NCBI GenBank assembly: GCA_017387565.1
Contig: JAFOEY010000044.1
Coordinates: 1-64,000, forward strand
Direction: 5' to 3'
Origin: Lachnospiraceae bacterium
Lineage (GTDB): Bacteria > Bacillota > Clostridia > Lachnospirales > Lachnospiraceae
Length of the DNA: 64,000 bases
A program made the position numbers and the translations under genes. This document shows, in pieces, positions 33,402 to 57,386 of this stretch (its first letter is position 1; every line of letters starts with the position of its first letter). Below the pieces are notes generated by a model. It saw nothing but the letters and a program-made list of their open reading frames with translations, searched no databases and had not been told where the DNA came from.

Positions 33402-33417
33402 CACAAAATATCTATTA

Positions 33418-33478: not shown

Positions 33479-33492
33479 GTTATCGTAATTCA

Positions 33493-40891: not shown

Positions 40892-41000
40892 ATGATACCA
40901 ACATTATACGAACCATTAAGAAATGAACTAGAGGGGGAAGATGATGACTAACCTCGGTGCGTTAAAAGAAATTATTACCAAAAAGGTAATGAAAACTTGA
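40892..41000 (+). other. Two tiny overlapping ORFs (19 and 18 codons)
   Basis: ATG 40892-40951 encodes MIPTLYEPLRNELEGEDDD and ATG 40944-41000 encodes MTNLGALKEIITKKVMKT after GGGGGAAGATG. They resemble starts of longer accessory proteins, so they may be gene remnants. Weak support. Confidence 0.3.
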
Positions 41001-41050
41001 AGCAAAAAAGCGGATATGATATATTATTGTTACCATTATGGTAATAATAA
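40997..41050 (+). promoter_or_regulatory. Promoter and operator of the higBA-like module
   Basis: TTGAAG (40997-41002), 17 bp, TATATT (41020-41025). An inverted repeat (TTATTGTTACCA 41024-41035, TGGTAATAATAA 41039-41050, 11 of 12 paired) covers the start point, as expected for autoregulation by the HTH antitoxin. Confidence 0.7.
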
Positions 41051-41073
41051 AGAAAGGAGCTGAATATAATAAT

Positions 41074-41427
41074 TTGAGTATGACAATTTTGTATAAGAAT
41101 AGAACTGCAAAAGAACAGTTTTGCTCTGAATACAAGAAGAAATGGAGATACCCAGACCAAGTAAAGAAAAAACTTGAGGCAGCAGAGACTTTTATTATTA
41201 ATTCGGACTCCTTGTTGGACGTTGCAAATTATCCACCTTTTCATTTTGAGAGGTTAAAAGGAAATAGAAAAGATGAATGGAGTATTAGGCTTGGCAATAC
41301 TGGATATTGAGTAACAATGATTCCTTGCGACGACAACGGGAATGAAATTGTTGATGGAGACATAATAGCTCAGTGTAAAATGATAAAAATAGTTAAGGTA
41401 ACGGAGGTGTCTAACCATTATGAGTAA
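41074..41427 (+). pseudogene. HigB/RelE-type toxin gene with premature stop
   Basis: Start TTG 41074 or ATG 41080 after AAAGGAGC. Encodes a RelE/HigB-like toxin (KNRTAKEQFCSEYKKKWRYP, ADVANYPPFHFERLKGNRK-type core, DEWSIRLGNTGY) that stops at a TGA, 41308-41310. The same frame then continues with VTMIPCDDNGNEIVDGDIIA and KVTEVSNHYE to TAA 41427, exactly the family C-terminus, overlapping the antitoxin start by 8 bp. CGA (Arg) to TGA explains the break; the lost Arg-containing tail carries active-site residues, so the toxin is probably dead. Confidence 0.85.
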
Positions 41428-42653: not shown

Positions 42654-42710
42654 ATGAAAGGTAAAATAAAAGTCTTATTCATCTGCCACGGCACTCCAGT
42701 TTTACTATAA
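42654..42710 (+). pseudogene. Severed 5' end of the LMW protein tyrosine phosphatase gene
   Basis: ATG 42654 (AAAGGG upstream) encodes MKGKIKVLFICHG, the first 13 residues of a low-molecular-weight phosphatase including the start of its CX5R loop, then diverges (TPVLL stop). The intact gene at 56778 starts MIKVLFICHGN. This is the original chromosomal gene start left behind when the element integrated. Confidence 0.85.
42666..42693 (+). repeat. attL core region
   Basis: 28 bp (ATAAAAGTCTTATTCATCTG continuing to GGCA) matching 56781-56808 at 26 of 28 positions; the longest identical run is TTATTCATCTG (42675-42685 and 56790-56800), the best candidate for the strand-exchange core. Confidence 0.75.
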
Positions 42711-42782
42711 ATCATACCTTTGTAAACTTGGGCAAGACAGGGCATAATATGGCGGGAAACCGCATAAATACTACGGTTTAGA

Positions 42783-42847
42783 CTACTAAGGCACATAGGC
42801 AGAATGGGGGTAAAGGCAAATGTGTTGGGAGTATTCCTTAGTAGTAA
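42783..42847 (+). repeat. Left-end integrase arm-type repeats
   Basis: CTACTAAGG (42783-42791) and TTCCTTAGTAGTAA (42834-42847); the 14-mer recurs exactly at 56603-56616 near the right end. Further GTTAGTAGTAGG and AGTTAGTAGG words follow near 42926 and 43035. Fits the DR2-type arm sites bound by the N-terminal domain of Tn916-like integrases. Confidence 0.6.
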
Positions 42848-43100
42848 AAGACTACTTAGGGAATGATAATTGAACAATATATTGCATATATGGCGGCTAA
42901 TTCGTGAGGAGTTACGGGTTGGCCGCTTTTGTTAGTAGTAGGAGTGACTGATAGGGTGACCGATGAGGTGACTGATAAATTAAACGAAATTCGGAAAAAG
43001 CGGAAAATGCCGAAAGTGGGTTAAAGGAATCAAAGTTAGTAGGAATTAGATTTGTGAGTAAACTGCAGATTTGTCGAAGTTATATTTTATAAAATAATGA

Positions 43101-43151
43101 CGAACGATCGTTCGGCTTCTTCTTGACTTTTTGTAATGCAAAAAGTATAAT
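43101..43151 (+). promoter_or_regulatory. Promoter with palindromic operator for the RHH gene
   Basis: TTGACT (43123-43128), 17 bp, TATAAT (43146-43151); a perfect dyad CGAACGATCGTTCG (43101-43114) sits just upstream of the -35. It may drive the whole left cargo region. Confidence 0.75.
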
Positions 43152-43177
43152 GTCAATATGCACGAAAGGAGAGCATT

Positions 43178-43360
43178 ATGAAAAAGATGGGACGTCCAAA
43201 AGGAGATAACAATATGGTTAAGAGTTATACCATCCGAATGGATGATGCTACTTTAGCCAGATTGGAAGCATATTGCAAACTGATGAAGGTTGCAAAATCA
43301 GAAGCCATTCGCAAAGCAATTAATACTATGGTGGATGAATGTGAAGAAATCAATAAATAA
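43178..43360 (+). CDS. Ribbon-helix-helix (CopG-like) DNA-binding protein
   Basis: 60 residues. SYTIRMDDATLARLEAYCKL followed by KSEAIRKAINTMVDE is the beta-ribbon plus two helices of an RHH protein. GAAAGGAGAG before ATG 43178. First gene of the element; probably a regulator of the promoter overlapping the CGAACGATCGTTCG dyad or of excision. Confidence 0.8.
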   Translation: MKKMGRPKGDNNMVKSYTIRMDDATLARLEAYCKLMKVAKSEAIRKAINTMVDECEEINK

Positions 43361-43363
43361 TAT

Positions 43364-43465
43364 GTGTTCAACGAACTGACGGACTATTTTGATGCAAAAG
43401 TGCGAGAGTCCAATGATCCATCATTCGATGGTGCTAATACGATAATGTTCGGACTCGAAGAATAA
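43364..43465 (+). CDS. 33-codon ORF, possible gene remnant
   Basis: GTG 43364, encodes VFNELTDYFDAKVRESNDPS and ends FGLEE. No clear ribosome site; acidic. Fits either a small partner of the RHH protein or the tail of a lost gene. Confidence 0.35.
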   Translation: MFNELTDYFDAKVRESNDPSFDGANTIMFGLEE

Positions 43466-43498
43466 GTGAGATGGCTGTATGCCAAGGAGGACTTTTTT

Positions 43499-44740
43499 AT
43501 GCCAATGGAAAAAACAATGTGCGAACTCTTTGCAGGAGTCGGAGGATTCCGTGTAGGAATGGAGAGATTAGGAACTGGGTGGAATACTACTTGGTTTTCA
43601 CAATGGGAGCCAGATAAGGTTAATCAGTGGGCTCATGATTGTTATGTGGGTCACTTTGGTGATTTACAAGATATGCGTGGAGAATACCACACAGGAGAAG
43701 ATATTTCATTAATGGATAAGAATGCCATACCAGACCACAATTTATTAGTAGGTGGTTTCCCATGTCAGGACTATAGCGTTGCTCATACATTAGCATCTTC
43801 ACATGGGATTGAAGGTAAGAAGGGTGTATTGTGGTGGCAAATTCGAGATACGATTATTGCTAAGAATCCGGCTTTTTGTATATTTGAGAATGTAGATAGA
43901 TTGCTAAAGTCTCCTGCAAGTCAGAGGGGAAGAGATTTTGGTATTATATTAGCTTGTTTAGCAAGCTTAAATTATTCAGTTGAATGGCGAGTTGTTAACG
44001 CTGCAACATATGGTGCGGCACAGAGACGTAGAAGAACTTTTATATTTGCATATAGAAACGATACTGTATATGGTCAGAATATGAATGGAGTCGCACCAGT
44101 AGATGTAATTTCGCAAAGAGGTTTTATGGTACAGGCCTTTCCTATTGTCGCAAATACAGATATTGTGAATGGAACATTAGGTGCTTATGCAACAGATGAA
44201 GATATAATTAATATTTCTGATAATTTTGCCTTTGCATTTGATAAAGCCGGATATATGCATGAAGGTAATATTTATACATGTGATATTACTGAAGAAGAAA
44301 TCCAGCCAATATTGATTAGACAGATACTTCAAGAAAATGTAGAAGAGGAGTTTTATATTACAGAGGATAAAAAGCCTAAGTGGGTATATTTAAAAGGAGC
44401 AAAGAAAATTCCTAGAAAGACAAAAGATGGTCACGAATATACTTTCTCAGAGGGCCCGGTTGCATTCCCAGACCCTTGGGATAGACCGGGAAGAACAATG
44501 TTAACAAGCGAATCTACATTAAATAGAAGTACACATGTTGTGACAGACCCAGGTTCTGGAAGACTTCGTTTATTAACGCCTATTGAAGCTGAAAGGCTAC
44601 AGGGATTTGATGATGATTGGACTAATTCAGGAATGCCTAAGAGAATGCGTTATTTTTGTATGGGCAATGCGTTAGTAGTTCCAATGATAACACGAATGGG
44701 TGAGGTACTAGACGATATTATGGCTAATGAAGAGCCGTAG
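43499..44740 (+). CDS. C5-cytosine DNA methyltransferase of a type II R-M system
   Basis: 413 residues from ATG 43499 (CAAGGAGG upstream). Motif I ELFAGVGGFRVGME, motif IV GGFPCQDYS (catalytic Cys), motif VI FENVDRLL, motif VIII AQRRRRTF, motif X-like FCMGNALVVPMI. The restriction gene follows at 14 bp. By partnership with a Sau3AI/MutH-type endonuclease it probably methylates the cytosine in GATC; that specificity is inferred. Confidence 0.93.
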   Translation: MPMEKTMCELFAGVGGFRVGMERLGTGWNTTWFSQWEPDKVNQWAHDCYVGHFGDLQDMRGEYHTGEDISLMDKNAIPDHNLLVGGFPCQDYSVAHTLASSHGIEGKKGVLWWQIRDTIIAKNPAFCIFENVDRLLKSPASQRGRDFGIILACLASLNYSVEWRVVNAATYGAAQRRRRTFIFAYRNDTVYGQNMNGVAPVDVISQRGFMVQAFPIVANTDIVNGTLGAYATDEDIINISDNFAFAFDKAGYMHEGNIYTCDITEEEIQPILIRQILQENVEEEFYITEDKKPKWVYLKGAKKIPRKTKDGHEYTFSEGPVAFPDPWDRPGRTMLTSESTLNRSTHVVTDPGSGRLRLLTPIEAERLQGFDDDWTNSGMPKRMRYFCMGNALVVPMITRMGEVLDDIMANEEP

Positions 44741-44753
44741 AGAGGAGGATACA

Positions 44754-46364
44754 ATGTCACTTTCTTATGAATATGATAAACATGATAGAAGAGATATTTT
44801 GCGTCATGCAAAGGCTTTAGAAGGTTATGTTGTAGGTGATGTTTATGAATTGGAGGTTCTTGGTAAACATCGAGATAATATATTGCAGTACTATGCAGAA
44901 AAATGTATCCAAGGATGGACTGACGAAGATGGAACATCTCACAGAGGTGATAAAGGACGAATTGGATTTTTAGTTCAGGAAGTTTATTTTGATGAACCAC
45001 GTGATAATGAAGCACAAGCCGATTTAGGTGCTGTTGGAGTTGAATTAAAAGTAAGTCCTCTGATATACAAAACTAGAGCCGGATTAAAGGTTAAGGAAAG
45101 ACTTGTTTTAGGAATGATTAATCGTAATGAACAATTACCAGAGAAATTCTGCGATTCTCATATTTACGAAAAGTGTAAATTGATGATGTTGGTTTATTAT
45201 ATAGATGAAACTAATCAAGGTAGAACGCCATTTCAGTTCCCATTTCATAAATCGGCATATGTTAAAATTCCAGAAGTGGATATGGCTATGATTGAGCAAG
45301 ATTATAGATATATTCGGGATTGTGTAAATGAGGGAAGATATTCTGATTTGCATGAGAGTGAGGCACACTATCTGTCTCCATGTACGAAGAATGGTGGACG
45401 TGCATTTTCGTTTAAGCCTTCATATATGAATCAGTTGTTTAGCGAGTATATTGATGCAAATAATTTGCTTTATGACCCGGATAAGGACGAGGAAACCTAT
45501 GATATTATTCGTCAATATGATGCCATCATAAGTGATGCGGATGAACTTAGGGAGCATACTTTTGAAGAAATTGTTTTAGGTCGTTTTAATCCATATATAG
45601 GAATGACTGTTACAGAAATAAGACAAGCTTTAATGGAGCCGGATGATTTTGAGCAGTGGTCTTCAAAGAAGACGATTGATAAAGCGGAATTTGCACGAAC
45701 AACTTTTGCTATGCTAGGAATTACAAGTGAACAGGCTGAAGAATTTGTAAGATCGAATACATATGTAAAGACATTGCGCGTGAATAGCGACTTGACAATG
45801 AATGAGGATATTTCATTTTCTGCCTTCGATTTTAAAGAATTAATGGAAGAGGAATGGGAAGAGTCAACGGTCTATGAGGAAATGGTGGACAGACAGTTTT
45901 TATGGTCTGTTTTTAAAGAACAGGGTGATGACTTCGTATTCTATGGCGCACGTTTCTGGAGTCTCCCACAGGAGGATGAACCTATCATTCGTAAGGGTTG
46001 GGAAGATATCAGAGACATTATTCGAGATGGCGTTGAATTTGTTAAAGACCAAAAGGATGATGGAACATTGATATTAACCAAGAGAGGGAAAAATAGAATG
46101 TTGAATAATTTCCCTGACTCAAGAAATACAAATCCAAAGCGTAAGGAATATAGATTGTGTAAATCTCCGAAGGAATATAATAAGATTATTTCCATTCGTC
46201 CACATGCATCATTGGTATATTATGATTTGAAGTCTATAGGATACGCAGATACAGAAAATCCTAGAAGCAATGGTAGCGAATTACCAAACGGCGATATTAT
46301 GACAAAACAGTGCTTCTGGTTTAATAACGAGTATATTCTTGAACAGATTCAGGATATGTTCTAA
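44754..46364 (+). CDS. Sau3AI/MutH-family restriction endonuclease
   Basis: 535 residues from ATG 44754 (GAGGAGG upstream). The N-terminal MutH-like domain shows GRIGFLVQEVYF and then DLGAVGVELKVSPL, a D...ExK catalytic motif, followed by VKERLVLGMINR. A second MutH-like domain covers the C-terminal half (FKELMEEEWEES, VDRQFLWSVFKEQ, FYGARFWSLP) without the full motif, as in Sau3AI. Predicted target GATC. Forms an R-M pair with the upstream methyltransferase. Confidence 0.88.
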   Translation: MSLSYEYDKHDRRDILRHAKALEGYVVGDVYELEVLGKHRDNILQYYAEKCIQGWTDEDGTSHRGDKGRIGFLVQEVYFDEPRDNEAQADLGAVGVELKVSPLIYKTRAGLKVKERLVLGMINRNEQLPEKFCDSHIYEKCKLMMLVYYIDETNQGRTPFQFPFHKSAYVKIPEVDMAMIEQDYRYIRDCVNEGRYSDLHESEAHYLSPCTKNGGRAFSFKPSYMNQLFSEYIDANNLLYDPDKDEETYDIIRQYDAIISDADELREHTFEEIVLGRFNPYIGMTVTEIRQALMEPDDFEQWSSKKTIDKAEFARTTFAMLGITSEQAEEFVRSNTYVKTLRVNSDLTMNEDISFSAFDFKELMEEEWEESTVYEEMVDRQFLWSVFKEQGDDFVFYGARFWSLPQEDEPIIRKGWEDIRDIIRDGVEFVKDQKDDGTLILTKRGKNRMLNNFPDSRNTNPKRKEYRLCKSPKEYNKIISIRPHASLVYYDLKSIGYADTENPRSNGSELPNGDIMTKQCFWFNNEYILEQIQDMF

Positions 46365-46395
46365 GAGAAAAAAATGCTACTAGGAAAGGATAAAA

Positions 46396-46617
46396 ATGAT
46401 TTCTACATATTTAATTCGATATGATGGTATTGATGGATTTGGAAGTATAGATTTTTGTGCTGAAAATAAAAAAGAGGCAATTAGTCTTTTTAACCAGTGG
46501 TGTGTGAATGATAATAGAATGTTGGCATCAGTTCCAATTAAGAGTATTGAAATTATTTATAATGATGAAGATGCAGAAGAGTATGGTGCGAAATATAATA
46601 GTGTAGAAAAGAGATGA
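46396..46617 (+). CDS. Small hypothetical protein between REase and kinase
   Basis: 73 residues, MISTYLIRYDGIDGFGSIDF, then a helix (KKEAISLFNQWC) and IKSIEIIYNDEDAEEYG. Looks like a small alpha/beta domain. AAAGGA before ATG 46396; 5 bp before the kinase gene, suggesting a two-gene unit. Family unknown. Confidence 0.6.
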   Translation: MISTYLIRYDGIDGFGSIDFCAENKKEAISLFNQWCVNDNRMLASVPIKSIEIIYNDEDAEEYGAKYNSVEKR

Positions 46618-46622
46618 TATAG

Positions 46623-47828
46623 GTGGCACAATTAGATTCTTATTTAAGACGAATGTTTTCTGAGTATGATTTAAGTTTTCTTGATGATTATTATGATATG
46701 TATGATTTTGTACCTAATGATGATTTACGTAAGATATTAGCAGCATTTCATACTAATCTGAATAATTGGATAACTGTAATAAATTCTGATATTCGCACAA
46801 CATATGATGAAGATGGCAAATTGGCGTATAGTGGTGGATACTTTCATGCGCAAGATAGTAGAGATTATTTGTCTCTTATAGAAAAAATTGATTCACTTCG
46901 AAGTAAGTTAAATTCTTCTGAATATGCATTTCGGATTTGTAAAGATGAATATGATGATTTTATAAGAAGGACACGAAGATTTGTAGTTAAATCGGGAGGT
47001 AGTACGATTCCAGATGGATTTGAACCTATCGAAATTGAAGACTTAAATCCTGTATTTGAGTTGGTTTCAGGTGTTGCAATTACGAATGATAATAAAACGA
47101 TATATGCAAGTATGAAGCCTGTGGGTGAGGGGTCGTACGCAAAAGTATTTTCATATACGGATCCAACGTACAATATTCCAATAATTTTAAAAAGAGCATT
47201 ACCTACATTAGACAATAAGGAAATGAAGAGATTTGAGCAGGAGTTTCAGATACTTAAGAGTTTACGTTCTCCATATATTGTGCAAGCATATGCATATAAC
47301 GAAGGTGCCAATGAATACACAATGGAATATTTGGATGAAACTCTATATAAGTATATTTTGAAAAATAATGCCGAGCTATCCTTAAAAGAGCGAAAGGGAA
47401 TAATTGCTCAAATATGTAAAGGATTAGAATACATTCATGGGAAAAATATTTTACATAGGGATATCAGTTTAGTTAATATTTTTGTCAAACATTATGAGGA
47501 TGTAAATGTTATTAAACTAGGTGATTTTGGTCTTGTTAAGAATCCAGAAAATACACTGACTAGTTTGCAGACAGAAATTAAGGGTTCGTTGAATGACCCA
47601 GATTTAGTTAATGTGGGTTTTGCAAATTATGAAATCAGGCATGAAACATTTGCGTTAACAAGATTATGCTATTTTGTGTTAACAGGAAAAACGAATGTTT
47701 CAAAGCAAAAAGAAGGTGCCATTAAAGCATTTTGGCGCAAGGGTACGAGTACAGACATTAATGAACGTTTTAAGTCTGTTGAAGAATTGTATGCGGCTGT
47801 GATGGCAATTAATGAATCAAATATGTGA
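46623..47828 (+). CDS. Eukaryotic-like Ser/Thr protein kinase
   Basis: 401 residues, GTG start. N-terminal ~150 residues of unknown fold rich in Asp/Tyr (FLDDYYDMYDFVPNDDLR), then a kinase domain: GEGSYAKVFSY (Gly loop), IILKRALP (Lys), YTMEYLDETLYKYI (hinge), HRDISLVNIFV (catalytic loop HRD with D and N) and GDFGLVKNP (DFG). All catalytic residues are present, so it is probably active. No TM segment. Next to an R-M system in a mobile element, so a defence role (as in kinase-based abortive systems) is likely but unproven. Confidence 0.88.
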   Translation: MAQLDSYLRRMFSEYDLSFLDDYYDMYDFVPNDDLRKILAAFHTNLNNWITVINSDIRTTYDEDGKLAYSGGYFHAQDSRDYLSLIEKIDSLRSKLNSSEYAFRICKDEYDDFIRRTRRFVVKSGGSTIPDGFEPIEIEDLNPVFELVSGVAITNDNKTIYASMKPVGEGSYAKVFSYTDPTYNIPIILKRALPTLDNKEMKRFEQEFQILKSLRSPYIVQAYAYNEGANEYTMEYLDETLYKYILKNNAELSLKERKGIIAQICKGLEYIHGKNILHRDISLVNIFVKHYEDVNVIKLGDFGLVKNPENTLTSLQTEIKGSLNDPDLVNVGFANYEIRHETFALTRLCYFVLTGKTNVSKQKEGAIKAFWRKGTSTDINERFKSVEELYAAVMAINESNM

Positions 47829-47927
47829 TGAATCTATATATAGGAGTAACCGAAAAGGTTGCTCCTTAATTTTTGGCATTTTTTATAAATATCAAAAATT
47901 CTCATCGTCAAATCGCACGAGATTTCT

Positions 47928-48306
47928 CTTTTAAGGAATAGAAGAAATAATAAAAAGTTTCGGCCATTTGACCATATTTTTCCCAAAGAAATATGAGAGG
48001 AAAAATGATTTTCAAAAACTGTAGTTCAAAATCCTCCTAACTGTAATTGGGAGGATTAGAGGGGAGAGGAAATTTTCCTTCGGATAGGAAAATGCTCAAA
48101 TTCCTTACTAACAAAAATGAGAGGGAAAACTGGTCATTTTAGATATTTTTGTCCAGGGCTATGTGAAAGATAATAATTTTTCCGCCCATTTCAGAAAAAA
48201 GTGTCCATAGGAATGTGAAAGGATAAAAAACTTTCGTTCAAAATCAGATTTCCTGTCCAAAGGAATATGAAAGGGGTTGTAACTTTTCACGTCTATGAGA
48301 ACAACA
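47928..48306 (+). repeat. Iteron-like tandem array, candidate replication origin
   Basis: The last three units start exactly 52 bp apart: 48151 GTCCAGGGCTATGTGAAAGA, 48203 GTCCATAGGAATGTGAAAGG, 48255 GTCCAAAGGAATATGAAAGG. Degenerate units start near 47928, 47981 and 48101, with a GGAGGATT hairpin and an ATTTTCC/GGAAAAT hairpin (48030-48095) in between. AT-rich filler. It lies directly upstream of the primase-helicase gene, where satellite and plasmid origins are often found. Confidence 0.7.
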
Positions 48307-48323
48307 CAAAGGAGGCATACAAC

Positions 48324-50642
48324 ATGGATTTATCAAAAATTCCAAACAGGCTACGTGGCAAACCATATTTCTGCTTGATGAGGCTTGAACAGAAACCGGG
48401 TAAGGCCAAGAAGGAGAAGGTGCCATACAGAACGAATGGAGCGAGAGCAGACCCTACAAACCCAGAACATTTCACAAGCCTTGAGAATGTAATGAAGGTT
48501 ATTGATAAGGGTGGGTATGACGGAATCGGCATAGGCTTATTCGATGACATTATTGCTATCGACATTGATGATTGCGTGGAAGATGGTAAGCTGAACGATT
48601 TTGCTACAGAAATTGTGGAGGCACTAAAGACTTATGCAGAGTTTAGTATCTCCGGCACAGGAGTTCATATCTGGGCAAGGGCGCCAGGTCTTATTTATGA
48701 CAAGGAACGCTACTACTTTAACAATCGCACATACGGACTTGAGATTTATCCGGCGGGTGTAACTACGAAGTTCATAGTGACCACAGGCAATGCAATCAAT
48801 GATTGCGACATCAACGAATGTACAGAGGCTTTTATAGGCATCGCAGAAAAATACATGGTAAGACCAACGGCAGAAAAGCCAAAGGTCGATGCTCCGGGGA
48901 GTTACCTTTCTGATGAATCAGTAATCGAGAAGATGCTTGCGTCTAAAAATGCAGAAAAGACAAAAGCCTTGTGGGAAGGTGAGATACCGGAAGGAAAATC
49001 GCACAGTGAGGCTGACGCAGCACTTTGCATGATACTCGCATTCTGGTGTGGTGGTGATGAGGAACAGATGGACAGGCTTTTTAGGCAATCTGCTCTTATT
49101 CGTGACAAGTGGGATGAGCTTCATGGTGCTGATACTTATGGAAATCTGACCATACGAAATGCCATAGCAAGAACCACAGAGTTTTACAAACCTGTTGATG
49201 TAGGAAATGCCCGTGAGGACTTCAACGAACTTGCGATTCGACTTATGGAATTCATGCCGGAATCAAACCGACTTTACAAGGAAGGTGACCTTGGCAATGG
49301 AAGGCTCTTCGCTGATGTGTTTAAGGACATTGCAAGATATGTGCCGGAACGCAAGAAGTGGTTTATTTACGATGGCACCCGCTGGGTTGCAGATATTGGT
49401 TCGCTTAAGGCTATGGAACTTGCTAAAGATTTAGCTGATGCATTGCTCATTCATTCCGTGACTATCAAGGACGAAGATATGCGAAACAACTTCATTAAGA
49501 ATGTTGTGAGAAAGTGGCAGCAGAGAGGCTATCGTTCGGTCTACCTTAGTGATGCTCAAAGCGTGTACCCGGTGTCGATTGAGAAATTTGATGCAGATAT
49601 TTATCTTTTCAATTGTAAGAACGGAACACTTAATTTGCGAGATGGAACTTTCAGAGAACACAGAGCAGATGACTTCGTTACCAAAATCTCGCATGTGGAA
49701 TATGTGCCGTCAGCAAGTTCGGAACGTTTTGAAGAGTTCATCGATGAAATTACCTGCCGGGATAAGGATAGGGCAAGATTCCTTCAGAAAACATTGGGCT
49801 ACGGCTTGAGTGGTGATACAAGGTTTGAGTGCATGTTCTTCTATTTCGGAGAAACCACAAGAAATGGTAAGGGAACTCTTATGGAGACTGTTCTTATCAC
49901 ACTTGGGGATTACGGAGCAACAGTAAGACCAGAAACCATAGCGACCAAGTATAACCCAAACAGCCAGAACCCTTCAGAAGATATTGCAAGACTTGCAGGC
50001 ATACGATTTGCTAACATATCCGAGCCGGGCAGAGGTCTTCTGCTTAACGCAGCACAGGTCAAAACGATGACGGGTAGTGATACCTTGAATGCTCGTTTTC
50101 TGCATGAGAACAGTTTTGATTTCAGACCACAGTTCAAGCTATATGTGAATACCAACTATCTGCCTGTAATTACGGATATGACAGTGTTTACAAGTGACAG
50201 AGTTCTGATAGTGCCGTTTGAGAGACACTTTGAACCTTGGGAACAGGATAAAGGATTAAAGGCAGAATTCAGAAAGCCGGAAGTACAGAGTGCAGTTCTC
50301 AACTGGTTACTAGACGGATATGCACTTTTGCAGAAGGAAGGTCTGCAACCACCTAAATCAGTTCTTGAGGCAACGGCAGCCTACTATCACGAAAGTGATA
50401 AGGTTACGCAGTTTGCCGATGACAGGCTCATCGAAGATGGTACCGCAGAGGTCAGAACATCACAGGTTTACGATGAATACCGAAGGTGGTGTGATGAGAA
50501 TGGCTGTTACTCCGAGAACAGCAGAAACTTCAATCAGGAGTTACGCAAATTCGGAAAAGTAGTCAGAAAGCGTCCGAAAGCTGGTGGAGAGAAAACCACA
50601 ATGCTTATAGGATACAGGCTTAAGGTAGATTTCTTAAGCTAG
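48324..50642 (+). CDS. Primase-helicase (D5/P4-type phage replication protein)
   Basis: 772 residues from ATG 48324 (AAAGGAGG upstream). N-terminal prim-pol-like part with GIGIGLFDDIIAIDIDDCVE and SISGTGVHIWARAP, then a D5_N/helicase SF3 domain with Walker A GETTRNGKGTLME (~residues 508-520), Walker B-like AGIRFANISEPG, and sensor VYTNYLPVITD-type. Length and order fit NrS-1/P4-like primase-helicases of satellites. Predicted to start replication at the iteron array just upstream. Confidence 0.9.
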   Translation: MDLSKIPNRLRGKPYFCLMRLEQKPGKAKKEKVPYRTNGARADPTNPEHFTSLENVMKVIDKGGYDGIGIGLFDDIIAIDIDDCVEDGKLNDFATEIVEALKTYAEFSISGTGVHIWARAPGLIYDKERYYFNNRTYGLEIYPAGVTTKFIVTTGNAINDCDINECTEAFIGIAEKYMVRPTAEKPKVDAPGSYLSDESVIEKMLASKNAEKTKALWEGEIPEGKSHSEADAALCMILAFWCGGDEEQMDRLFRQSALIRDKWDELHGADTYGNLTIRNAIARTTEFYKPVDVGNAREDFNELAIRLMEFMPESNRLYKEGDLGNGRLFADVFKDIARYVPERKKWFIYDGTRWVADIGSLKAMELAKDLADALLIHSVTIKDEDMRNNFIKNVVRKWQQRGYRSVYLSDAQSVYPVSIEKFDADIYLFNCKNGTLNLRDGTFREHRADDFVTKISHVEYVPSASSERFEEFIDEITCRDKDRARFLQKTLGYGLSGDTRFECMFFYFGETTRNGKGTLMETVLITLGDYGATVRPETIATKYNPNSQNPSEDIARLAGIRFANISEPGRGLLLNAAQVKTMTGSDTLNARFLHENSFDFRPQFKLYVNTNYLPVITDMTVFTSDRVLIVPFERHFEPWEQDKGLKAEFRKPEVQSAVLNWLLDGYALLQKEGLQPPKSVLEATAAYYHESDKVTQFADDRLIEDGTAEVRTSQVYDEYRRWCDENGCYSENSRNFNQELRKFGKVVRKRPKAGGEKTTMLIGYRLKVDFLS

Positions 50643-50761
50643 GGGCAATATGTGGCTACTCATAATGGTAAATTCTATAGAAAAAATAACTATAGAAAAC
50701 ACCATATGAACTAGCCACAAGATGCCCCGATTGTGAAAACGCAAGAAGGGAGGAAAGCCTT

Positions 50762-51010
50762 ATGGTCAAGATTTGGGGAAGTGCCGAGGAGTTACATTTA
50801 CTACCCGGTGATTGTGACACAGAAAAGTACAAGTGCATCCGTGTGTATATGAAACCGGATAATAGCCTTGTCGGAGTGTTCATGAGTAAGGCGGCAGAAC
50901 CACCTCATTACTATGTGGTTGATGGTTTGCAGGAGATGTACTACAAAACCCGTGCCGAGGCAATCGGCTACTGTATCAGTAAAGGATACGCAGAGAGAAC
51001 AGAGAATTAG
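50762..51010 (+). CDS. Small phage-like hypothetical protein
   Basis: 82 residues, MVKIWGSAEELHLLPGDCDT, KYKCIRVYMKPDNSLVGVF, then DGLQEMYYKTRAEAIGYC. GGGAGGAAAG before ATG 50762. Common size and position for replication-module accessory genes; function unknown. Confidence 0.6.
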   Translation: MVKIWGSAEELHLLPGDCDTEKYKCIRVYMKPDNSLVGVFMSKAAEPPHYYVVDGLQEMYYKTRAEAIGYCISKGYAERTEN

Positions 51011-51022
51011 GAGGAAAAGCAA

Positions 51023-51238
51023 ATGTTTACACAGGATTATTTTGAGAAACACTTCAAGCTTCACAACAAGATTGTGCTTTACACACCGGACGATATCAAG
51101 TTGGAGTTTACCAAAGAGCCACACTTTCATATGAGTGGCGGTCATACATCACTGGACCTTATGGATGTAGAAGACCTTACCTCATTTTGCAATGCAAGAG
51201 GATTGAAAACAAAGCCAAGTGGCAACATCACAGTTTAG
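51023..51238 (+). CDS. Small phage-like hypothetical protein
   Basis: 71 residues, MFTQDYFEKHFKLHNKIVLY, FHMSGGHTSLDLMDVEDLTS. GGAGGAAAAG before ATG 51023; 12 bp after the previous gene. Unknown function. Its stop lies at the base of a large hairpin that precedes terS. Confidence 0.6.
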   Translation: MFTQDYFEKHFKLHNKIVLYTPDDIKLEFTKEPHFHMSGGHTSLDLMDVEDLTSFCNARGLKTKPSGNITV

Positions 51239-51315
51239 CACGAGAGGGTGACCCCAGGGGGCGGTCATAATCTCTGTGGTCTTTATGACAGGGCAACGGT
51301 GCCGCCCCTTCGTGC
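51238..51315 (+). other. Large branched hairpin upstream of terS
   Basis: Outer arms GCACGA/TCGTGC (51238-51243, 51310-51315), a GGGGGCGG/CCGCCCC block and an inner GTCATA/TATGAC arm. GC-rich relative to its surroundings. Could be a leader RNA structure or the packaging (pac/cos-like) site recognised by the terminase small subunit encoded next. Confidence 0.55.
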
Positions 51316-51364
51316 GAATAACTTACAAAAGTTTTAGGGGTATTAACCCCGGAAAGGAAAAAAT

Positions 51365-51901
51365 ATGGGAAAAAGAGGACCCATGCCGGGTACTGGTGGC
51401 AGACCGAGAAAAGCATTATCGGAAAAGTTAGCTGATGGTAATCCGGGATATAAATCAATAAAGGTTATACCTGCACCTTCTACATATGAAGGTATAGGTA
51501 TTCCAAAGCCAAATGATTACATCAAAGCAAAACAAAAAAACGGCAAGCCATTATATGCCGAGGAAATCTATAACAATACCTGGGGATGGCTTATTGAATG
51601 CAAGTGTGACCACTTATTCGTACCTGCAATTGTGGAGGAATATGCGATGAGTTTTGCACGTTGGATTCAGTGTGAAGAGGCAATTTCGGAGTATGGTTTT
51701 TTGGCAAAGCACCCTACAACAGGACAGGCTATCACATTTCCGTATGTCAGTATGAGCCAGAGTTACATGAAACAGGCAACGCAGCAATGGTCTTTGATTT
51801 ATGAGATTGTAAAGGCTAATTGCACAGTAAATTTTGAAGGAGCAACACCATATGAGGATGCAATGGAATTGTTGCTCAAGAGTAGAGAAAGGAGATTTTA
51901 A
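51365..51901 (+). CDS. Phage terminase small subunit, P27-like
   Basis: 178 residues. Starts MGKRGPMPGTGGRPRKALSE, the P27/terminase_4 hallmark, then NPGYKSIKVIPAP and a helical domain with FVPAIVEEYAMSFARWIQCEE and TTGQAITFPYVSMSQSYMKQA. Recognises DNA for packaging. GGAAAGGAAAAAAT upstream. No large-subunit gene is present, so a helper phage must supply it, as in PICI-type satellites. Confidence 0.85.
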   Translation: MGKRGPMPGTGGRPRKALSEKLADGNPGYKSIKVIPAPSTYEGIGIPKPNDYIKAKQKNGKPLYAEEIYNNTWGWLIECKCDHLFVPAIVEEYAMSFARWIQCEEAISEYGFLAKHPTTGQAITFPYVSMSQSYMKQATQQWSLIYEIVKANCTVNFEGATPYEDAMELLLKSRERRF

Positions 51902-51903
51902 CT

Positions 51904-52881
51904 ATGGTTACAGAATCAATCTCAAACAACAATTCATCACAGGAGGGAACAGTAATGGGTATTGATGAAATCACAAACAGTGGCAAGGATTATGCTACAG
52001 AATTTTGGAACAAGGCAATGAGGGGTAAGCCGGCAGACTTTGAGAAACTTAAGAGTGGCAGAACAGCAACAGATATGTTTACTCTTCCTTACGATAGTAA
52101 TCGTAAGTATATGGCTGAACTTGAAAAGGAGAGTATCTTCCGTCAGTTTGCAACAAGTATCAATGTATCTTCATCCAACAATACCGTGCTTGCGTATGCG
52201 TCAGACGATGTGGCCGCATGTGTGCCGGAAGGAGAATCTATCAATGTATCGGATCTGGCAGATGATTTTACAAGAATTAAGACAGAGGCACATAAGGTGG
52301 TGTCACTCGTAAAAGTAGCGAATGCATTTGTTACTGATAATGTGTTTGATATCAAGAAACACCTTCCAAAACGATTTGCAAAGGTCTTTGGCAGGGCAGA
52401 AGAAAATCTCTTCATTAATGGAACGGGAGTAGGTCAGCCAGTGGGTATTTTGAATGACACATTGGGTGCTGAGACAGGAGTTACCACAACTGACGTTACT
52501 TTCGATGATGTCATTAATCTTTATATGTCAGTAAAGGCAAAACATCGTAAGCATGGAGTATGGCTTATGAATGACGAGACGGCACTTGCTCTCCGTAAGC
52601 TTAAAGATAAGGACGGCAATTATTTATGGCAGGAGGATATGGATACCATTCTCGGTAAGCCTGTGTACATTTCAGAGTTTATGCCTAGCATTGCAACAGG
52701 CAAGAAGGTTATTGTTTTTGGTGATTTTAGTTACTATTGGATTCTTAATCGCAGACCTTTGGCTGTCAGAGCGCTTAATGAGAAGTTCGAACTTTATGAC
52801 CAGACGGGCTACCTTGGGATGGAGTATATTGACGGCAAACTTGTGAACAGAGAAGCCATCAAGGTTATGCAGATTTCATAA
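51904..52881 (+). CDS. HK97-type major capsid protein
   Basis: 325 residues. ESIFRQFATSINVSSSNNTV, CVPEGESINVSD, ANAFVTDNVFDIKKHL, GVGQPVGILN, ALALRKLKDKDGNYLW, and FGDFSYYWILNRRPLAVR are in the order of the HK97 fold (A-domain, E-loop, spine helix). ATG 51904 has GAAAGGAG; an internal ATG 51955 with GGAGGG could give a shorter form. No protease, portal or scaffold gene is near. A capsid gene on a satellite may remodel or replace the helper's capsid. Confidence 0.9.
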   Translation: MVTESISNNNSSQEGTVMGIDEITNSGKDYATEFWNKAMRGKPADFEKLKSGRTATDMFTLPYDSNRKYMAELEKESIFRQFATSINVSSSNNTVLAYASDDVAACVPEGESINVSDLADDFTRIKTEAHKVVSLVKVANAFVTDNVFDIKKHLPKRFAKVFGRAEENLFINGTGVGQPVGILNDTLGAETGVTTTDVTFDDVINLYMSVKAKHRKHGVWLMNDETALALRKLKDKDGNYLWQEDMDTILGKPVYISEFMPSIATGKKVIVFGDFSYYWILNRRPLAVRALNEKFELYDQTGYLGMEYIDGKLVNREAIKVMQIS

Positions 52882-52899
52882 CCAATACAAATATCATTA

Positions 52900-52925
52900 G
52901 TCGGGGCGGAGATATCCGTTCCGAC
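52900..52925 (+). terminator. Hairpin between capsid and excisionase genes
   Basis: GTCGG-GGCGGA-GATA-TCCGTT-CCGAC stem (one G-U pair) right before the GGGAGGTGAG ribosome site of the next gene. No T-tract follows, so an mRNA processing or attenuation hairpin is as likely as a terminator. Confidence 0.4.
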
Positions 52926-52940
52926 AGGGAGGTGAGCATA

Positions 52941-53162
52941 ATGCATATGGTTGAAACAGAGAAAAATGATAGTGCGTTGCCTGTTGGTGAGAAGTTTATG
53001 CTCACTATCAAAGAGGCAGCACCTTACTACAATATAGGTACAAAAAAACTGCGTAGGCTTGCAGAGGATAACCTTGGTGTGTTTTCAGTGTATAGCGGAA
53101 ATAGATACCTAATTGTAAAACCAAAGTTTGAAGAATTCATCCTTAATTCTTCAGAAATATAG
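52941..53162 (+). CDS. Excisionase-like DNA-binding protein 1
   Basis: 73 residues from ATG 52941 (GGGAGGTGAG). FMLTIKEAAPYYNIGTKKLR and NRYLIVKPKFEEF match the winged-helix Tn916 Xis pattern. Adjacent to the integrase and a second similar protein. Likely promotes excision. Confidence 0.75.
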   Translation: MHMVETEKNDSALPVGEKFMLTIKEAAPYYNIGTKKLRRLAEDNLGVFSVYSGNRYLIVKPKFEEFILNSSEI

Positions 53163-53273
53163 TTCCTTTTATCTGCTGAAAGTAGTTGCTATTTCAGGGG
53201 TGTAGAGGGAATATACGATGAACCCAATAAACCCTTGAAAACAGCCACTTTTGGTAGAAAGGAATGTGATGTT

Positions 53274-53483
53274 ATGGCAAAACCTAATTTAGCAGAAAAG
53301 GATATTTTAAACCCTTCGGAGACGATTGAATATTTCGTCTTGAGCCGAAGAAAGTTCTATGATTTATTGAAAAATACGGATGGAGAAGATTTCTTGGCAT
53401 ACTACGGAGAACGCAAGCTGATTATCCGTGTAGCCTTTGAAAAGTATTTACTGCACCATCCAGAGTTAAGGAGGCAGGTATAA
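53274..53483 (+). CDS. Excisionase-like DNA-binding protein 2
   Basis: 69 residues from ATG 53274 (AAAGGAATG). ILNPSETIEYFVLSRRKFYD and GERKLIIRVAFEKYLLHH are again Xis-like. Its stop overlaps the integrase start (TAATG). Two Xis-type proteins in a row may reflect duplication or Xis plus a regulator. Confidence 0.75.
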   Translation: MAKPNLAEKDILNPSETIEYFVLSRRKFYDLLKNTDGEDFLAYYGERKLIIRVAFEKYLLHHPELRRQV

Positions 53484-54763
53484 TGGCGAAAGCAGGAAGA
53501 GGGCAGACAAGGCGTGATTCCAAACGAAGAGTTCTTCGTCCGGGAGAGAGCGTCAGAGCAGATGGAAAATATCAATATAAGTATCATATCGATGGCAAGC
53601 CGCATTTTGTGTATAGTTGGAAATTAGAGCCAACAGACAAATTACCAAAGGGCAAAAAACCATGCCTGTCACTCCGGGAACTTGAGAAACAGGTTAATTC
53701 TGAAATAGAAACACTTCCGAATATGGCGGATGGCCAAATGACGGTATGTGAACTTGTAGACCGATACCTCAAAACCAAGACGGGAGTACGACAGAGTACC
53801 AAGCAGGGATATGTCACAGTGCAAAGAGTTCTTGCCAAAGAGCCTTTCGGCAAGAAAACAATCCGAAGTGTGAAAACATCAGATGCAAAGCTGTTTCTTA
53901 TCAAGCTACAACAGGAAGATGGTAAAAGTTACAGTTCCATCCACACCATCCGGGGAGTGCTTAGACCTGCCTTTCAGATGGCGGTGGATGATGATATTAT
54001 TGTAAAGAATCCGTTCGGATTTCAGCTTGCTGGAGTTGTGGTAAATGATTCGGTAACAAGAGAGGCTATTAGCAAAGACCAAATGAGAAAGTTTCTAAAG
54101 TTTGTCCATGACGATGCGGTGTACTGTAAATATTATGAAGTGGTTTACATACTTTTCCACACGGGAATGCGAATATCGGAATTTTGTGGTCTGACACTGA
54201 AAGATATTGATTTGGAAAAGCGAATCGTTAATATCGACCATCAGCTACAAAGAACATCGGATATGAGGTATATCATTGAAACCACAAAGACGGATGCCGG
54301 AACAAGGAAACTTCCTATCACAGAGGATGTGGCACAGATGTTTCAGGCAATCATTGAGGACAGAGTTCCACCCAAGGTCGAAAAGGTGATTGATGGATAT
54401 AGTGGATTCCTTTTCTACGATGAAAATGATATGCCTCTGGTGGCAATGCATTGGCAGCACCGATTCAATCATATGGTCGGCAGGTACAATGACATTTACC
54501 GAGTGCAGATGCCAAACATCACTCCTCATGTTTGTAGGCACACCTACTGCTCCAATATGGCAAAATCGGGAATGAATCCAAAGACATTGCAGTACCTCAT
54601 GGGGCATTCGGATATTTCAGTTACGATGAATGTGTATACACATATCGGATTTGATGATGCTGAGGAAGAACTGAAACGGATGGAAGAGTTCCGGAAGGCG
54701 CAGGCAGAGATTGAGAAGAAGAATGAGAAACCAATGTCGCAGAAAATGTTTAAGGCAATTTGA
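53483..54763 (+). CDS. int: Tn916-type tyrosine integrase
   Basis: 426 residues. N-terminal arm-binding domain (RRVLRPGESVRADGKYQYKY, LRELEKQVNSEI), core-binding domain (QSTKQGYVTVQRVL) and catalytic domain with Arg in HTGMRISEFCGLTL, HVCRHTYCSNMA (HxxR), GHSDISVTMNVYTHI (His and nucleophile Tyr). Integrates the element at the LMW-PTP gene start. Start overlaps the second excisionase. A terminator follows, so the two genes to its right form a separate unit. Confidence 0.94.
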   Translation: MAKAGRGQTRRDSKRRVLRPGESVRADGKYQYKYHIDGKPHFVYSWKLEPTDKLPKGKKPCLSLRELEKQVNSEIETLPNMADGQMTVCELVDRYLKTKTGVRQSTKQGYVTVQRVLAKEPFGKKTIRSVKTSDAKLFLIKLQQEDGKSYSSIHTIRGVLRPAFQMAVDDDIIVKNPFGFQLAGVVVNDSVTREAISKDQMRKFLKFVHDDAVYCKYYEVVYILFHTGMRISEFCGLTLKDIDLEKRIVNIDHQLQRTSDMRYIIETTKTDAGTRKLPITEDVAQMFQAIIEDRVPPKVEKVIDGYSGFLFYDENDMPLVAMHWQHRFNHMVGRYNDIYRVQMPNITPHVCRHTYCSNMAKSGMNPKTLQYLMGHSDISVTMNVYTHIGFDDAEEELKRMEEFRKAQAEIEKKNEKPMSQKMFKAI

Positions 54764-54778
54764 TATAGGAGAATGATG

Positions 54779-54809
54779 ACGCTCCGGTTTAGGCTGGAGC
54801 GTTATTTTT
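54779..54809 (+). terminator. Terminator after the integrase gene
   Basis: ACGCTCC (54779-54785) and GGAGCGT (54796-54802) followed by TATTTTTG. Confidence 0.85.
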
Positions 54810-54878
54810 GTGGAAAAATGTCGTTTCTACAGGTATAATATATTTTAGAGAGATTTTGATAAAAAGGAGTGGTTGATA

Positions 54879-55820
54879 ATGGATATTACTGGAGCATCCG
54901 TAGCAAAAACAGCAGTAGATTTAGCTAAAACAGATAATATACTCAACAAAGCAACAGGTTTTATGGGAATGTTATTTCCATATGCAGGTATAAAACAAAA
55001 AGCAGTTGATATGTATATAGAAGATATTGAAAAATCTGATTTGCCTGCAGAAACAAAGGTATTTATGGTTTTAAATACAAAGAAGACTTTTAAGAGAATT
55101 AAGAACCAAAAAGCTATTGCAGAAATTGCGATGAATAATGCAGTGCAAGGAACAGATTTCACAGAGAAATCTGGCGTAAATGAGGAATGGCTAGAAAGAT
55201 TTATGGATTCTGCTGGTTTTGTAAGCTCGGAAGAAATCCAGTGGATATGGGGAAAAATATTAGCAAATGAATTTGAAAAACCAGGCTCAACTCCACCAAA
55301 TATGATAAGAATATTGTCAGAAATGACACCTACATATGCTAAGGCTTTTAGAAAATTATGTAGTATGAGATTTTTGCTTATTTCTATTTCTGAAAACGAA
55401 GAAATAACAGGAGCATATTGGAAGACGGGAGTTCCGTATAGCGAAAATAAAGAATTAATGAATGAATTAGGAATTTCTTTCCAAGTAATTAATGAGTTGG
55501 AAACACTTGGAGTGATAAAGTTCGATTCAGTTGCGGGGTATATTACAACAGGAATAAATGACAAAAAGGTGATTCTTTGTGTTGATGGAAAAACAATGGA
55601 AATAACTCAGCACGAAAGCGGGAGTATTCCAATTGGAGATGTGATTTTGACATCTGCAGGGGAAGCACTTAAAAACATAACAACGATTGAAGAAATTCGC
55701 GGATATGATGAGGCTATAAAAAAGTATATGCGTTCTAAAGGTGTTGTATTTAGCGAGGAGGAACAGTACCAAGTTGTTGTAACAGGTGATAGATTTCAAG
55801 TTAAAAAGAAAGAGGTATAA
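54879..55820 (+). CDS. DUF2806-like protein
   Basis: 313 residues. NEEWLERFMDSAGFVSSEEI, QWIWGKILANEFEKPGS and RILSEMTPTYAKAFRKLC match DUF2806-type proteins found in mobile elements and defence loci. A hydrophobic N-terminal part (TGFMGMLFPYAGI) may be membrane-associated. AAAAAGGAG before ATG 54879. First of two cargo genes between int and attR; function unknown, possibly phage defence together with the EEP gene 18 bp downstream. Confidence 0.75.
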   Translation: MDITGASVAKTAVDLAKTDNILNKATGFMGMLFPYAGIKQKAVDMYIEDIEKSDLPAETKVFMVLNTKKTFKRIKNQKAIAEIAMNNAVQGTDFTEKSGVNEEWLERFMDSAGFVSSEEIQWIWGKILANEFEKPGSTPPNMIRILSEMTPTYAKAFRKLCSMRFLLISISENEEITGAYWKTGVPYSENKELMNELGISFQVINELETLGVIKFDSVAGYITTGINDKKVILCVDGKTMEITQHESGSIPIGDVILTSAGEALKNITTIEEIRGYDEAIKKYMRSKGVVFSEEEQYQVVVTGDRFQVKKKEV

Positions 55821-55838
55821 TAAAAGAGAGAGTTATTT

Positions 55839-56597
55839 ATGCGAATTTTAAGTATTAATATAAATGATTTTGGCGGTTTGGAAAATCATCTAATGGAGCA
55901 TAAAAAATACAATGCTTGGGTTGGTAGAGAGTGTATTGACTGGAAATACTGGAGTGCTATAGATAAAGATGTAGTTTTCAATAAATTTCTTAATTATATT
56001 GAGGATAAGCAACCGGATGTTTTAATAGTTAATGAAATGATAGTTAGTCCACTAGAAAGAATAGATTTTATATCAAAAATAGAAGAGATGGGTTTTTCTT
56101 ATTTTGATGAAACAATACCGAGCGGAAAATACTCATTTACAATGATGTTTTATAAAAATATGAAATGTACGTTATTTGCATCTCCTAACAGTGGTTATCG
56201 AGAAAATAGGTCTATTTTGTATTTTGTTGAAGGGATTTATGTAAATGGTACACATTTTCCGCAGGAAAGTGATACTAAGTTTCTAAATGCTGTTGAGATG
56301 TTTTGCAAGGCGAGGAAAAATGATAAAGTAATAATTATTGGAGACTTAAATGCAAATGATGTTTCTCGAGGCAATAAACAATTGGTGGAGAGATTGAAAA
56401 CATATGGATATGTGGATGTGTGGGTTCAAAAAGGAAATCCAGCTGATACAGTAACTGAGGCAAAATATAGAGGAAGATTGGATTATGCAATCGCTTCAGA
56501 AGCAGTTTATGCATCTATTTCAAATATGGAAATAGATCCTATGCCGATGGATTGTGGAATGACAGACCATGCGGCAGTAATTATAGATGTGGTTTAA
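55839..56597 (+). CDS. Endonuclease/exonuclease/phosphatase (EEP) family protein
   Basis: 252 residues. EEP motifs: ILSININDFGGL (Asn), LIVNEMIVSPL (Glu), IIIGDLNANDVS (Asp/Asn), GRLDYAIAS and MTDHAAVIID (Asp-His). A metal-dependent nuclease or phosphoesterase; exact target unknown. Pairs with the DUF2806 gene. AGAGAG-type site before ATG 55839. Lies at the right end of the element, just before arm-type sites and attR. Confidence 0.8.
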   Translation: MRILSININDFGGLENHLMEHKKYNAWVGRECIDWKYWSAIDKDVVFNKFLNYIEDKQPDVLIVNEMIVSPLERIDFISKIEEMGFSYFDETIPSGKYSFTMMFYKNMKCTLFASPNSGYRENRSILYFVEGIYVNGTHFPQESDTKFLNAVEMFCKARKNDKVIIIGDLNANDVSRGNKQLVERLKTYGYVDVWVQKGNPADTVTEAKYRGRLDYAIASEAVYASISNMEIDPMPMDCGMTDHAAVIIDVV

Positions 56598-56602
56598 ATG
56601 TT

Positions 56603-56649
56603 TTCCTTAGTAGTAAGAATTTTCATTTTACTACTAATTTTACTACTAA
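56603..56649 (+). repeat. Right-end integrase arm-type repeats
   Basis: TTCCTTAGTAGTAA (56603-56616, exact match to the left end) and a 12-bp tandem TTTTACTACTAA at 56626-56637 and 56638-56649. All share the word TAGTAGTAA or its complement. Confidence 0.65.
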
Positions 56650-56777
56650 CAGGTAGTAACAACTTGCAAAAATATGCTCTGATTTGCCACATCCCGTCAT
56701 TTCAGAACAAATAACAAAATCCCCGAAAATCCTCGCAAAACTGGGCATTTCCGGGCAAAAAGGAGTAAACAATTACT

Positions 56778-57266
56778 ATGATAAAAGTATTATTCATCTG
56801 TCACGGCAACATCTGCCGTTCCCCCATGGCAGAATTCATTTTAAAAGACATGGTAGAAAAACAAGGCCTGTCAGATCAATTTTATATTGAATCTGCAGCC
56901 ACCAGCACTGAAGAAATCTGGAATGGCATTGGCAATCCGGTCTATCCGCCGGCGCGCGATGAATTACGAAAGCACGGTATATGCTGCGAAGGAAAACGAG
57001 CCAGACATTTGGAGAAAAATGATTATGATAAATACGATTACTTAATCGGGATGGAAAGCATGAATCTCCGCAATATGGCTAGAATATTGGGAAATGATTC
57101 CGAAAACAAGATAAGCAAGCTTCTGGATTTTTCTGATAAAAAGGGATATTCGAGCAGAGATATTGCGGATCCGTGGTATACCGGAAAATTTGGACAGACC
57201 TATGATGATATTGTAGAGGGATGTACCTCTTTTTTAGAATATCTGAAAAGAGAAAATAAAATATAA
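56778..57266 (+). CDS. Low-molecular-weight protein tyrosine phosphatase
   Basis: 162 residues. MIKVLFICHGNICRSPMAEF holds the P-loop CHGNICRS (CX5R plus Ser); the acid/base Asp is in DIADPWYTG. Dephosphorylates tyrosine-phosphorylated proteins, e.g. of capsule or stress systems. Its first ~10 codons and the AAAGGAG site now come from the mobile element (attR 56781-56808); the original start lies at 42654. So the element has replaced the 5' end while keeping the gene functional. Confidence 0.93.
   Translation: MIKVLFICHGNICRSPMAEFILKDMVEKQGLSDQFYIESAATSTEEIWNGIGNPVYPPARDELRKHGICCEGKRARHLEKNDYDKYDYLIGMESMNLRNMARILGNDSENKISKLLDFSDKKGYSSRDIADPWYTGKFGQTYDDIVEGCTSFLEYLKRENKI
56781..56808 (+). repeat. 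attR core region
   Basis: Matches attL 42666-42693 at 26 of 28 positions, including the 11-bp identical TTATTCATCTG at 56790-56800. Confidence 0.75.
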
Positions 57267-57312: not shown

Positions 57313-57313
57313 G

Positions 57314-57386
57314 TGCACCATCAGGGACTCGAACCCTGGACAAATAGATTAAGAGTCTACTGCTCTACCAACTGAGCTAATGGTGC
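57314..57386 (-). tRNA. tRNA-Lys (anticodon CTT)
   Basis: 73 nt on the minus strand with all four arms: acceptor GCACCAT/ATGGTGC, D arm GCTC-AGTTGGTA-GAGC, anticodon arm GTAGA-CTCTTAA-TCTAT, T arm CAGGG-TTCGAGT-CCCTG. CCA is not encoded. It reads AAG codons. Confidence 0.97.

Follow-up and report, generated by a model that had tools for sequence, protein, structure and literature searches.

A satellite-like element in the 5' coding end of a low-molecular-weight phosphatase gene, and recurrence of the attachment site in Lachnospiraceae-like bacteria

The attachment cores and the rebuilt phosphatase gene

The window analysed here is a stretch of 64,000 nucleotides from a Lachnospiraceae bacterium (GenBank assembly GCA_017387565.1, contig JAFOEY010000044.1, positions 1 to 64,000 of the forward strand). 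It holds two starts of a gene for a low-molecular-weight protein tyrosine phosphatase (LMW-PTP), both on the forward strand and one at each end of a block of mobile-element genes. The left start is a stump of 13 codons (42654-42692), reading ATG AAA GGT AAA ATA AAA GTC TTA TTC ATC TGC CAC GGC, and is the left part of the interrupted gene; the right start opens a complete gene (56778-57266). An earlier reading of this DNA from the letters alone, here called the original prediction, had named both starts and a shared region of 28 bp with 26 matches. Both starts are present and the shared region was borne out: the attL core (42666-42693, forward strand, ATAAAAGTCTTATTCATCTGCCACGGCA) and the attR core (56781-56808, forward strand, ATAAAAGTATTATTCATCTGTCACGGCA) are identical at 26 of 28 bases and form an imperfect direct repeat inside the target gene, the best match in 20 shuffles of the 150-bp ends being 19 of 28. 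These shuffles, like those of the spacers described below, preserve base composition only. No further copy of the core was found in the window at up to seven mismatches on either strand. The final stretch common to the two cores is CACGGCA (42687-42693 in attL), and they diverge immediately beyond it. The distance between the two copies of CACGGCA gives the element, at 42687-56801, a length of 14,115 bp.

When the flanks are joined at CACGGCA an open frame of 165 codons results, starting MKGKIKVLFICHGNICRSP. The gene as present starts MIKVLFICHGNICRSP (MIKVLF), so that the stump encodes three extra residues. This gene is chimeric and open. Its ribosome site (AAGGAG) and start codon (56760-56780, forward strand), and the codons through the P-loop cysteine C8 of CHGNICR, all lie on the element side of the repeat; the ten first codons are element-side and the remainder is host. 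As only the first base of codon 11 still belongs to the shared core, the cysteine codon is by its position supplied by the element. The CHGNICRS stretch aligns with the CxGNICRS stretch of solved LMW-PTPs, the first cysteine of which is known to be the nucleophile. The left inner end of the element (42694-42860) consists of an arm starting CTCCAGTTTTA and the repeats CCTTAGTAGT and ACTACTAAGG, and the right inner end (56607-56668) carries the repeats TTAGTAGTAA and TTACTACTAA; both sets are candidate integrase arm sites.

The integrase, excisionases, primase, small terminase and capsid genes that had been listed for the block were recovered with Pfam and PHROGs, with which 15 open reading frames (ORFs) of the element were scanned, PADLOC models being used for defence. 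All 15 are open and on one strand, the forward one. The Tn916-family tyrosine integrase (53483-54763) has the domains PF02920 and PF00589 and is adjoined by a Tn916-type excisionase (Xis, PF09035; 52932-53162) and a second Tn916-Xis-like protein (53235-53483), as expected of the Tn916 family. Upstream of these lie a D5/NrS-1-type primase-helicase (48267-50642), the terminase small subunit terS (51365-51901) and an HK97-type major capsid protein of 325 residues (51904-52881). Large terminase, portal, protease and tail genes were not found among the 15 ORFs. There was likewise no Pfam match to a conjugation gene among them, such as would define a conjugative transposon of the Tn916 type.

Recurrence of the site in related genomes and phages

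The family surveyed, called Lachnospiraceae-like here from the contig names, comprised 397 genomes, of which 122 have a match to the integrase (at 1e-60) and 294 a match to LMW-PTP (at 1e-30). Integrase and phosphatase were paired among the 150 matches listed for each search, out of the 294 genomes with a phosphatase match. Among the 150 listed LMW-PTP genes there were 50 genomes where an integrase match lies no more than 15 kb upstream; integrase and gene are on the same strand in 52 of 52 listed pairs, and in 41 of the 52 they are spaced by 120-303 bases. Starting from the integrase, a core lies within 6.5 kb downstream in 25 of the best 30 matches. Three of the other five are at a contig end, in one (L042) the start of the gene is more divergent and one (L030) has a decayed core, as read in L126/L246. 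Ten extra integrases at 56-59% identity, picked because no phosphatase match was listed beside them, are all at a core, nine at the gene and one (L258) in an array that lacks it. Thus 37 of the 40 genome integrases at 56-100% identity lie upstream of the core or the gene (one core being decayed), and three are at a contig end. At 38-48% identity two of ten are at a core, with one of the remaining eight truncated after 175 bases, and the Tn916 found in phage IPP61 is not at the LMW-PTP core. The sequence upstream of the gene reaches 1.5 kb or more in 47 of 80 named contigs (Blautia, Coprococcus, Acetatifactor, Lachnoanaerobaculum and others); in 20 of these 47 an integrase lies within 5 kb upstream, and none is reversed. 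Twenty-one loci lack a full integrase match, and several of them have, by eye, apparent defence or accessory genes just upstream; counts of occupied sites may therefore be low.

The replaced start recurs along with the site. The comparison covered 72 distinct loci whose intact integrase end is no more than 700 bp away from the gene; all have a start codon (71 ATG), and a Shine-Dalgarno-like motif was seen in 65 as against 9.3 expected from the same spacers shuffled, with one shuffle per spacer. Integrase and phosphatase are arranged head-to-tail in these loci, the spacer having a median length of 173 bp. No terminator-like site lies between them in 63 of the 72 (the other nine have one, the shuffled spacers had no such site at all), and read-through into the gene is therefore likely in most. 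Among 35 consecutive core pairs, mismatches at codon positions 3, 1 and 2 stand at 96:43:16 (summed by hand), which is expected if both copies of the core are kept to encode M-I-[KR]-[VI]-L-F-[IV]-C-H-G. These 35 include three probable non-element ends (the first pair of L072, the double gene of L170 and L203), and an integrase match lies between the cores in 20. L170 (Lachnospiraceae bacterium RM5) has two LMW-PTP-like starts 9.1 kb apart, marked by core matches at 904 and 10016, and phosphatase-like coding sequence follows each of them. Two stumps precede the gene in L077, L080, L082, L095 and L116, and each ends in CAYGGCA and runs into other sequence. The left arm of the window recurs in G348 as CTCCAGTTTTA and in an IMG/VR contig as CTCCAGTTTTACTATAA.

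Phages make use of the same gene. Monoglobales phage CHVD 5762 (Ca. Heliusvirales), which has annotated tail, baseplate and holin genes and an integrase 73.5% identical to that of the window, is represented by a record (PV036456) that breaks off inside an LMW-PTP gene, approximately 6.6 kb beyond the integrase, and whose opposite end showed no stump. The record of Ruminococcus phage NatCom_2329 opens with a stump-like start ending CATGGG, at nine mismatches from the reference core, and the 49.7 kb IMG/VR contig 2910649936_000001 has a core near both ends.

Judged from these layouts, mobile elements of many kinds dock at the 5' end of the LMW-PTP gene in related gut bacteria. Core, orientation and replacement start are the same in many genera, and there are tandem arrays, which suggests that this integrase lineage is dedicated to LMW-PTP. 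That the element integrated in the 5' coding end and brought a replacement start with its own ribosome site, as originally predicted, is strongly supported by the same layout in many genomes.

The original prediction had proposed as its check an unoccupied site in closely related genomes, and this was sought. Nine genomes of the genus, the window's own included, were searched by pattern, five by the DNA of the left flank, and the sister species G008 in addition, with one genome per species. No empty site was found: in G008 the site is occupied, a stump lying 3.7 kb past the left flank that it shares with the window and the phosphatase gene being on another contig, and the other genomes of the genus gave no native start. 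The recurrent attL/attR structure elsewhere stands in for this evidence. G004 was considered as an empty allele since it appears unoccupied, but it was set aside because C-W-G replaces C-H-G and the genes of the window's left flank are on a different contig. L145 was considered as a free attP and was rejected in its turn, as a phosphatase start further along the same contig makes it read as a chromosomal array.

Proposed mechanism and alternative explanations

We consider it very probable that the block is an integrated satellite resembling the phage-inducible chromosomal islands (PICIs), and that its Tn916-family integrase recombines attP with an attB in the 5' coding end of the LMW-PTP gene. 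Strand exchange would take place within or beside CACGGCA, and excision, presumably driven by the Xis proteins, would be expected to restore an attB of sequence MKGKIKVLFICHGNICRS. The attP of the element would carry a working start cassette (ribosome site, ATG and ten codons) held under coding constraint, and since this cassette is brought in on integration the host keeps a complete phosphatase frame. The phosphatase may then be transcribed at least in part by read-through from the rightmost genes of the element, and it may be that the element changes phosphatase expression. Packaging would depend on a helper phage and would be steered by the element's own TerS and short capsid protein.

Several observations weigh against this account or parts of it. 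The native start was absent, at up to three mismatches, from the eight other genomes of the genus, although three of the eight lack any LMW-PTP match, and no certain circular attP contig was found. The base of crossover is not fixed: CAY differs in 8 of the 35 core pairs and TGY in 6, so that the element origin of the cysteine codon follows from position and not from experiment. The 5' end of the stump may itself derive from an earlier element, since a start resembling it (M-K-E-H-I-K-V) lies 319 bases behind an integrase in L257 and M-K-E-H-I-N-I lies behind one in L198. The codon-position pattern of the cores could in part reflect a constraint of integrase binding. A terminator-like site does stand between integrase and phosphatase in 9 of the 72 loci, and the search for a promoter at the right end of the element gave a single match as against 1.1 expected by chance, so that this candidate was dropped. 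Downstream of the integrase of phage NatCom_2329 (64% identical) 9 kb were read and no core was found, and a decayed prophage would look similar to a satellite.

This last point is the substance of an alternative in which the block is a decayed prophage or mosaic, with terS, capsid and primase as remnants and the integrase merely persisting. It would account for an HK97 capsid gene, which is outside the usual PICI set, and it gains from the sharing of the core by phages and from decay at the LMW-PTP site seen elsewhere. Against it, the 15 scanned ORFs are all open and on one strand, and parts of the block recur as groups, which points to a maintained satellite module. The primase end (all of the primase that is in view), terS and capsid are found together in G309 at 96-100% identity; the order terS-capsid-Xis-Xis-Int is found upstream of LMW-PTP in G244 at 28-70% identity; and primase, short capsid protein and a serine recombinase form a cassette in G361 (by Pfam), with similar cassettes in G034 and G117 as judged by ORF sizes and starts only. 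Decay seems to us an unlikely explanation, if one with some claim to attention. The part of the original prediction that called the element a phage satellite is likely to be right, its support being gene content.

Two further explanations concern the junction with the gene. Integration might be a regulatory switch that re-times or raises phosphatase expression to the benefit of the element, as the head-to-tail arrangement, the short median spacer, the many loci free of a terminator-like site and the lack of any reversed case among the examined pairs would allow. The orientation is, however, forced by the site itself, the right-end promoter was not above chance and nothing points to selection for altered expression; the start cassette may simply avoid damage. 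We regard such a switch as improbable. The stump could instead be a paralogue fragment or a chance repeat with unrelated mobile genes adjoining it, and there is indeed a second LMW-PTP-family gene on another contig of the genome, as well as the failure to find an empty site. This has almost nothing left to recommend it, as the stumps of other genomes end at the same CAYGGCA and run into element arms, the left arm of the window recurs in G348 and in an IMG/VR contig, and recurrent attL/attR pairs in effect contradict it.

Returning to the integrated satellite, the wider history of its integrase was approached through a tree of 73 integrases, from which sequences with stops, with fewer than 370 aligned residues or more than 97% alike were left out. 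In the site labels of this tree phage rows L142 and L143 are marked as off-site, the former only because its core lay just beyond 6.5 kb and the latter only because no core was found. The Tn916-like rows form one clade (100/100) among rows from the phosphatase site. When distant integrases were added this clade fell between two phosphatase-site groups, with a support of 83/61 at the fork, where long branches meet. One might propose that LMW-PTP is the ancestral and still the principal docking gene of an entire branch of Tn916-type integrases in gut Clostridia, that satellites, phages and other elements keep overwriting its catalytic-loop codons and tie its transcription to the integrase, and that the loose target choice of Tn916 arose later, out of an ancestor dedicated in this way. 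We hold this to be doubtful as a whole, and the ancestral preference stays a guess because of the fork support and the long branches.

The site has several practical consequences. The limits of mobile elements can be found in a large group of gut bacteria by a simple rule, from stumps ending in CAYGGCA upstream of LMW-PTP. The attachment core carries codons of the catalytic loop, and every integration would thus exchange an essential part of the host protein while leaving the frame intact. The same-strand layout of integrase and phosphatase also offers a testable tie between mobile elements and a host phosphatase.

Comparison with known systems, cargo and neighbouring features

The original prediction had called the phosphatase gene an unusual target. 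This needs qualifying, because replacement of a 5' end has already been described as a kind of integration for dusA (PMC4482086). According to that paper, the dusA islands occur in many bacteria, and their tyrosine integrases are specialised for a single conserved gene, at its 5' end (Farrugia et al., 2015). As in the LMW-PTP elements, a new 5' end from the island keeps the protein whole, the attachment repeats are imperfect and of similar length, and diverse cargo accompanies an integrase held in common. The dusA islands occur in alpha-, beta- and gammaproteobacteria, whereas the LMW-PTP elements have Tn916-type integrases and occur in Lachnospiraceae-like Clostridia. Moreover, the part of dusA that is replaced is stated to have no known cofactor- or tRNA-binding residue (PMC4482086), whereas the replaced part of LMW-PTP reaches the catalytic cysteine codon. 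The LMW-PTP site appears on this comparison to be a variant of the dusA-like kind, with the same mechanism. It also has arrays with stacked stumps, and the word 'tandem' is absent from the text of PMC4482086. No report of an LMW-PTP integration site was found in a literature search that left most subscription journals outside, so that novelty is unproven; the phosphatase passages of PMC2605562, PMC10763512 and PMC4632033 contain nothing on such a site. With the Tn916 family the element shares its integrase (PF02920 and PF00589), its Xis (PF09035) and the xis-int order near one element end. Tn916 in IPP61 and most of the tested integrases at 38-48% identity are off LMW-PTP, whereas the lineage of the window is site-specific.

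The comparison with PICIs draws on PMC6092414. A size of about 14-15 kb, an integrase, a primase module, terS and accessory genes are shared, and the published description (some 15 kb, an integrase, a regulator and a replication module) agrees with the 14,115 bp, integrase, ribbon-helix-helix regulator and primase found here. Two published criteria stand apart from the element. Phage structural genes should be lacking, and an HK97 major capsid gene is present, although the paper itself names exceptions, the PICIs PmCI172 and SaPIbov5 encoding a capsid protein too (PMC6092414). The attachment site should never be occupied by a prophage, and both PV036456 and IMG/VR contig 2910649936_000001 use the LMW-PTP site, which is one reason why the element does not qualify as a PICI. 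Formal membership was accordingly rejected. PICIs are induced and packaged by a helper phage, whereas no helper is known for the LMW-PTP element.

Among 18 relatives of the capsid protein in the family (a cut copy in G309 excluded), 11 have 66-97 extra residues before the aligned part and seven are short like the 325-residue protein of the window. At L292, and by ORF sizes at L293 and L291, a primase, a short HK97 capsid and a serine recombinase were seen with no other recognised head gene, and this small cassette is possibly a second satellite lineage. L290 (G376) has, 6-13 kb upstream of LMW-PTP, a run of ORFs that looks like a head-only element: by size and order they would be terminase, portal, protease, short capsid and connectors, the capsid alone being matched.

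The remaining genes of the element are, from the left, a ribbon-helix-helix (CopG-like) regulator (43178-43360), a type II C5-cytosine DNA methyltransferase (43466-44740), a MutH-domain type II restriction endonuclease (44727-46364) and a serine/threonine protein kinase (46623-47828) with Stk2, mad6 and PD-T4-6 as its top PADLOC models. Three small ORFs (46396-46617, 50762-51010 and 51023-51238) are without an acceptable match. The slot between the integrase and attR holds as cargo a DUF2806/Abi_alpha-like protein (54873-55820) followed by a protein of the endonuclease/exonuclease/phosphatase (EEP) family (55839-56597). Neither has a PADLOC match at 54873-56597; the Abi_alpha-like protein and EEP nuclease are a candidate defence pair, and this slot seems a promising one in which to look for defence genes.

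On the right flank, a tRNA-Lys (ctt) gene lies on the reverse strand (57313-57386), and an identical tRNA sequence was seen by eye beside the gene in G003, G004, G007 and G008. Directly to the left of the stump lies a HigBA-like pair (41038-42526), the antitoxin of which has an M78 peptidase domain and a match to PD-Lambda-2_B. The stretch 40973-42526 is 91% identical to one on contig G008:C46, which is separate from the phosphatase contig of G008. Further to the left, a repeat of approximately 80 bp (around 33402-33481) has more than 30 further copies in the sister genome G008 at 87-96% identity.

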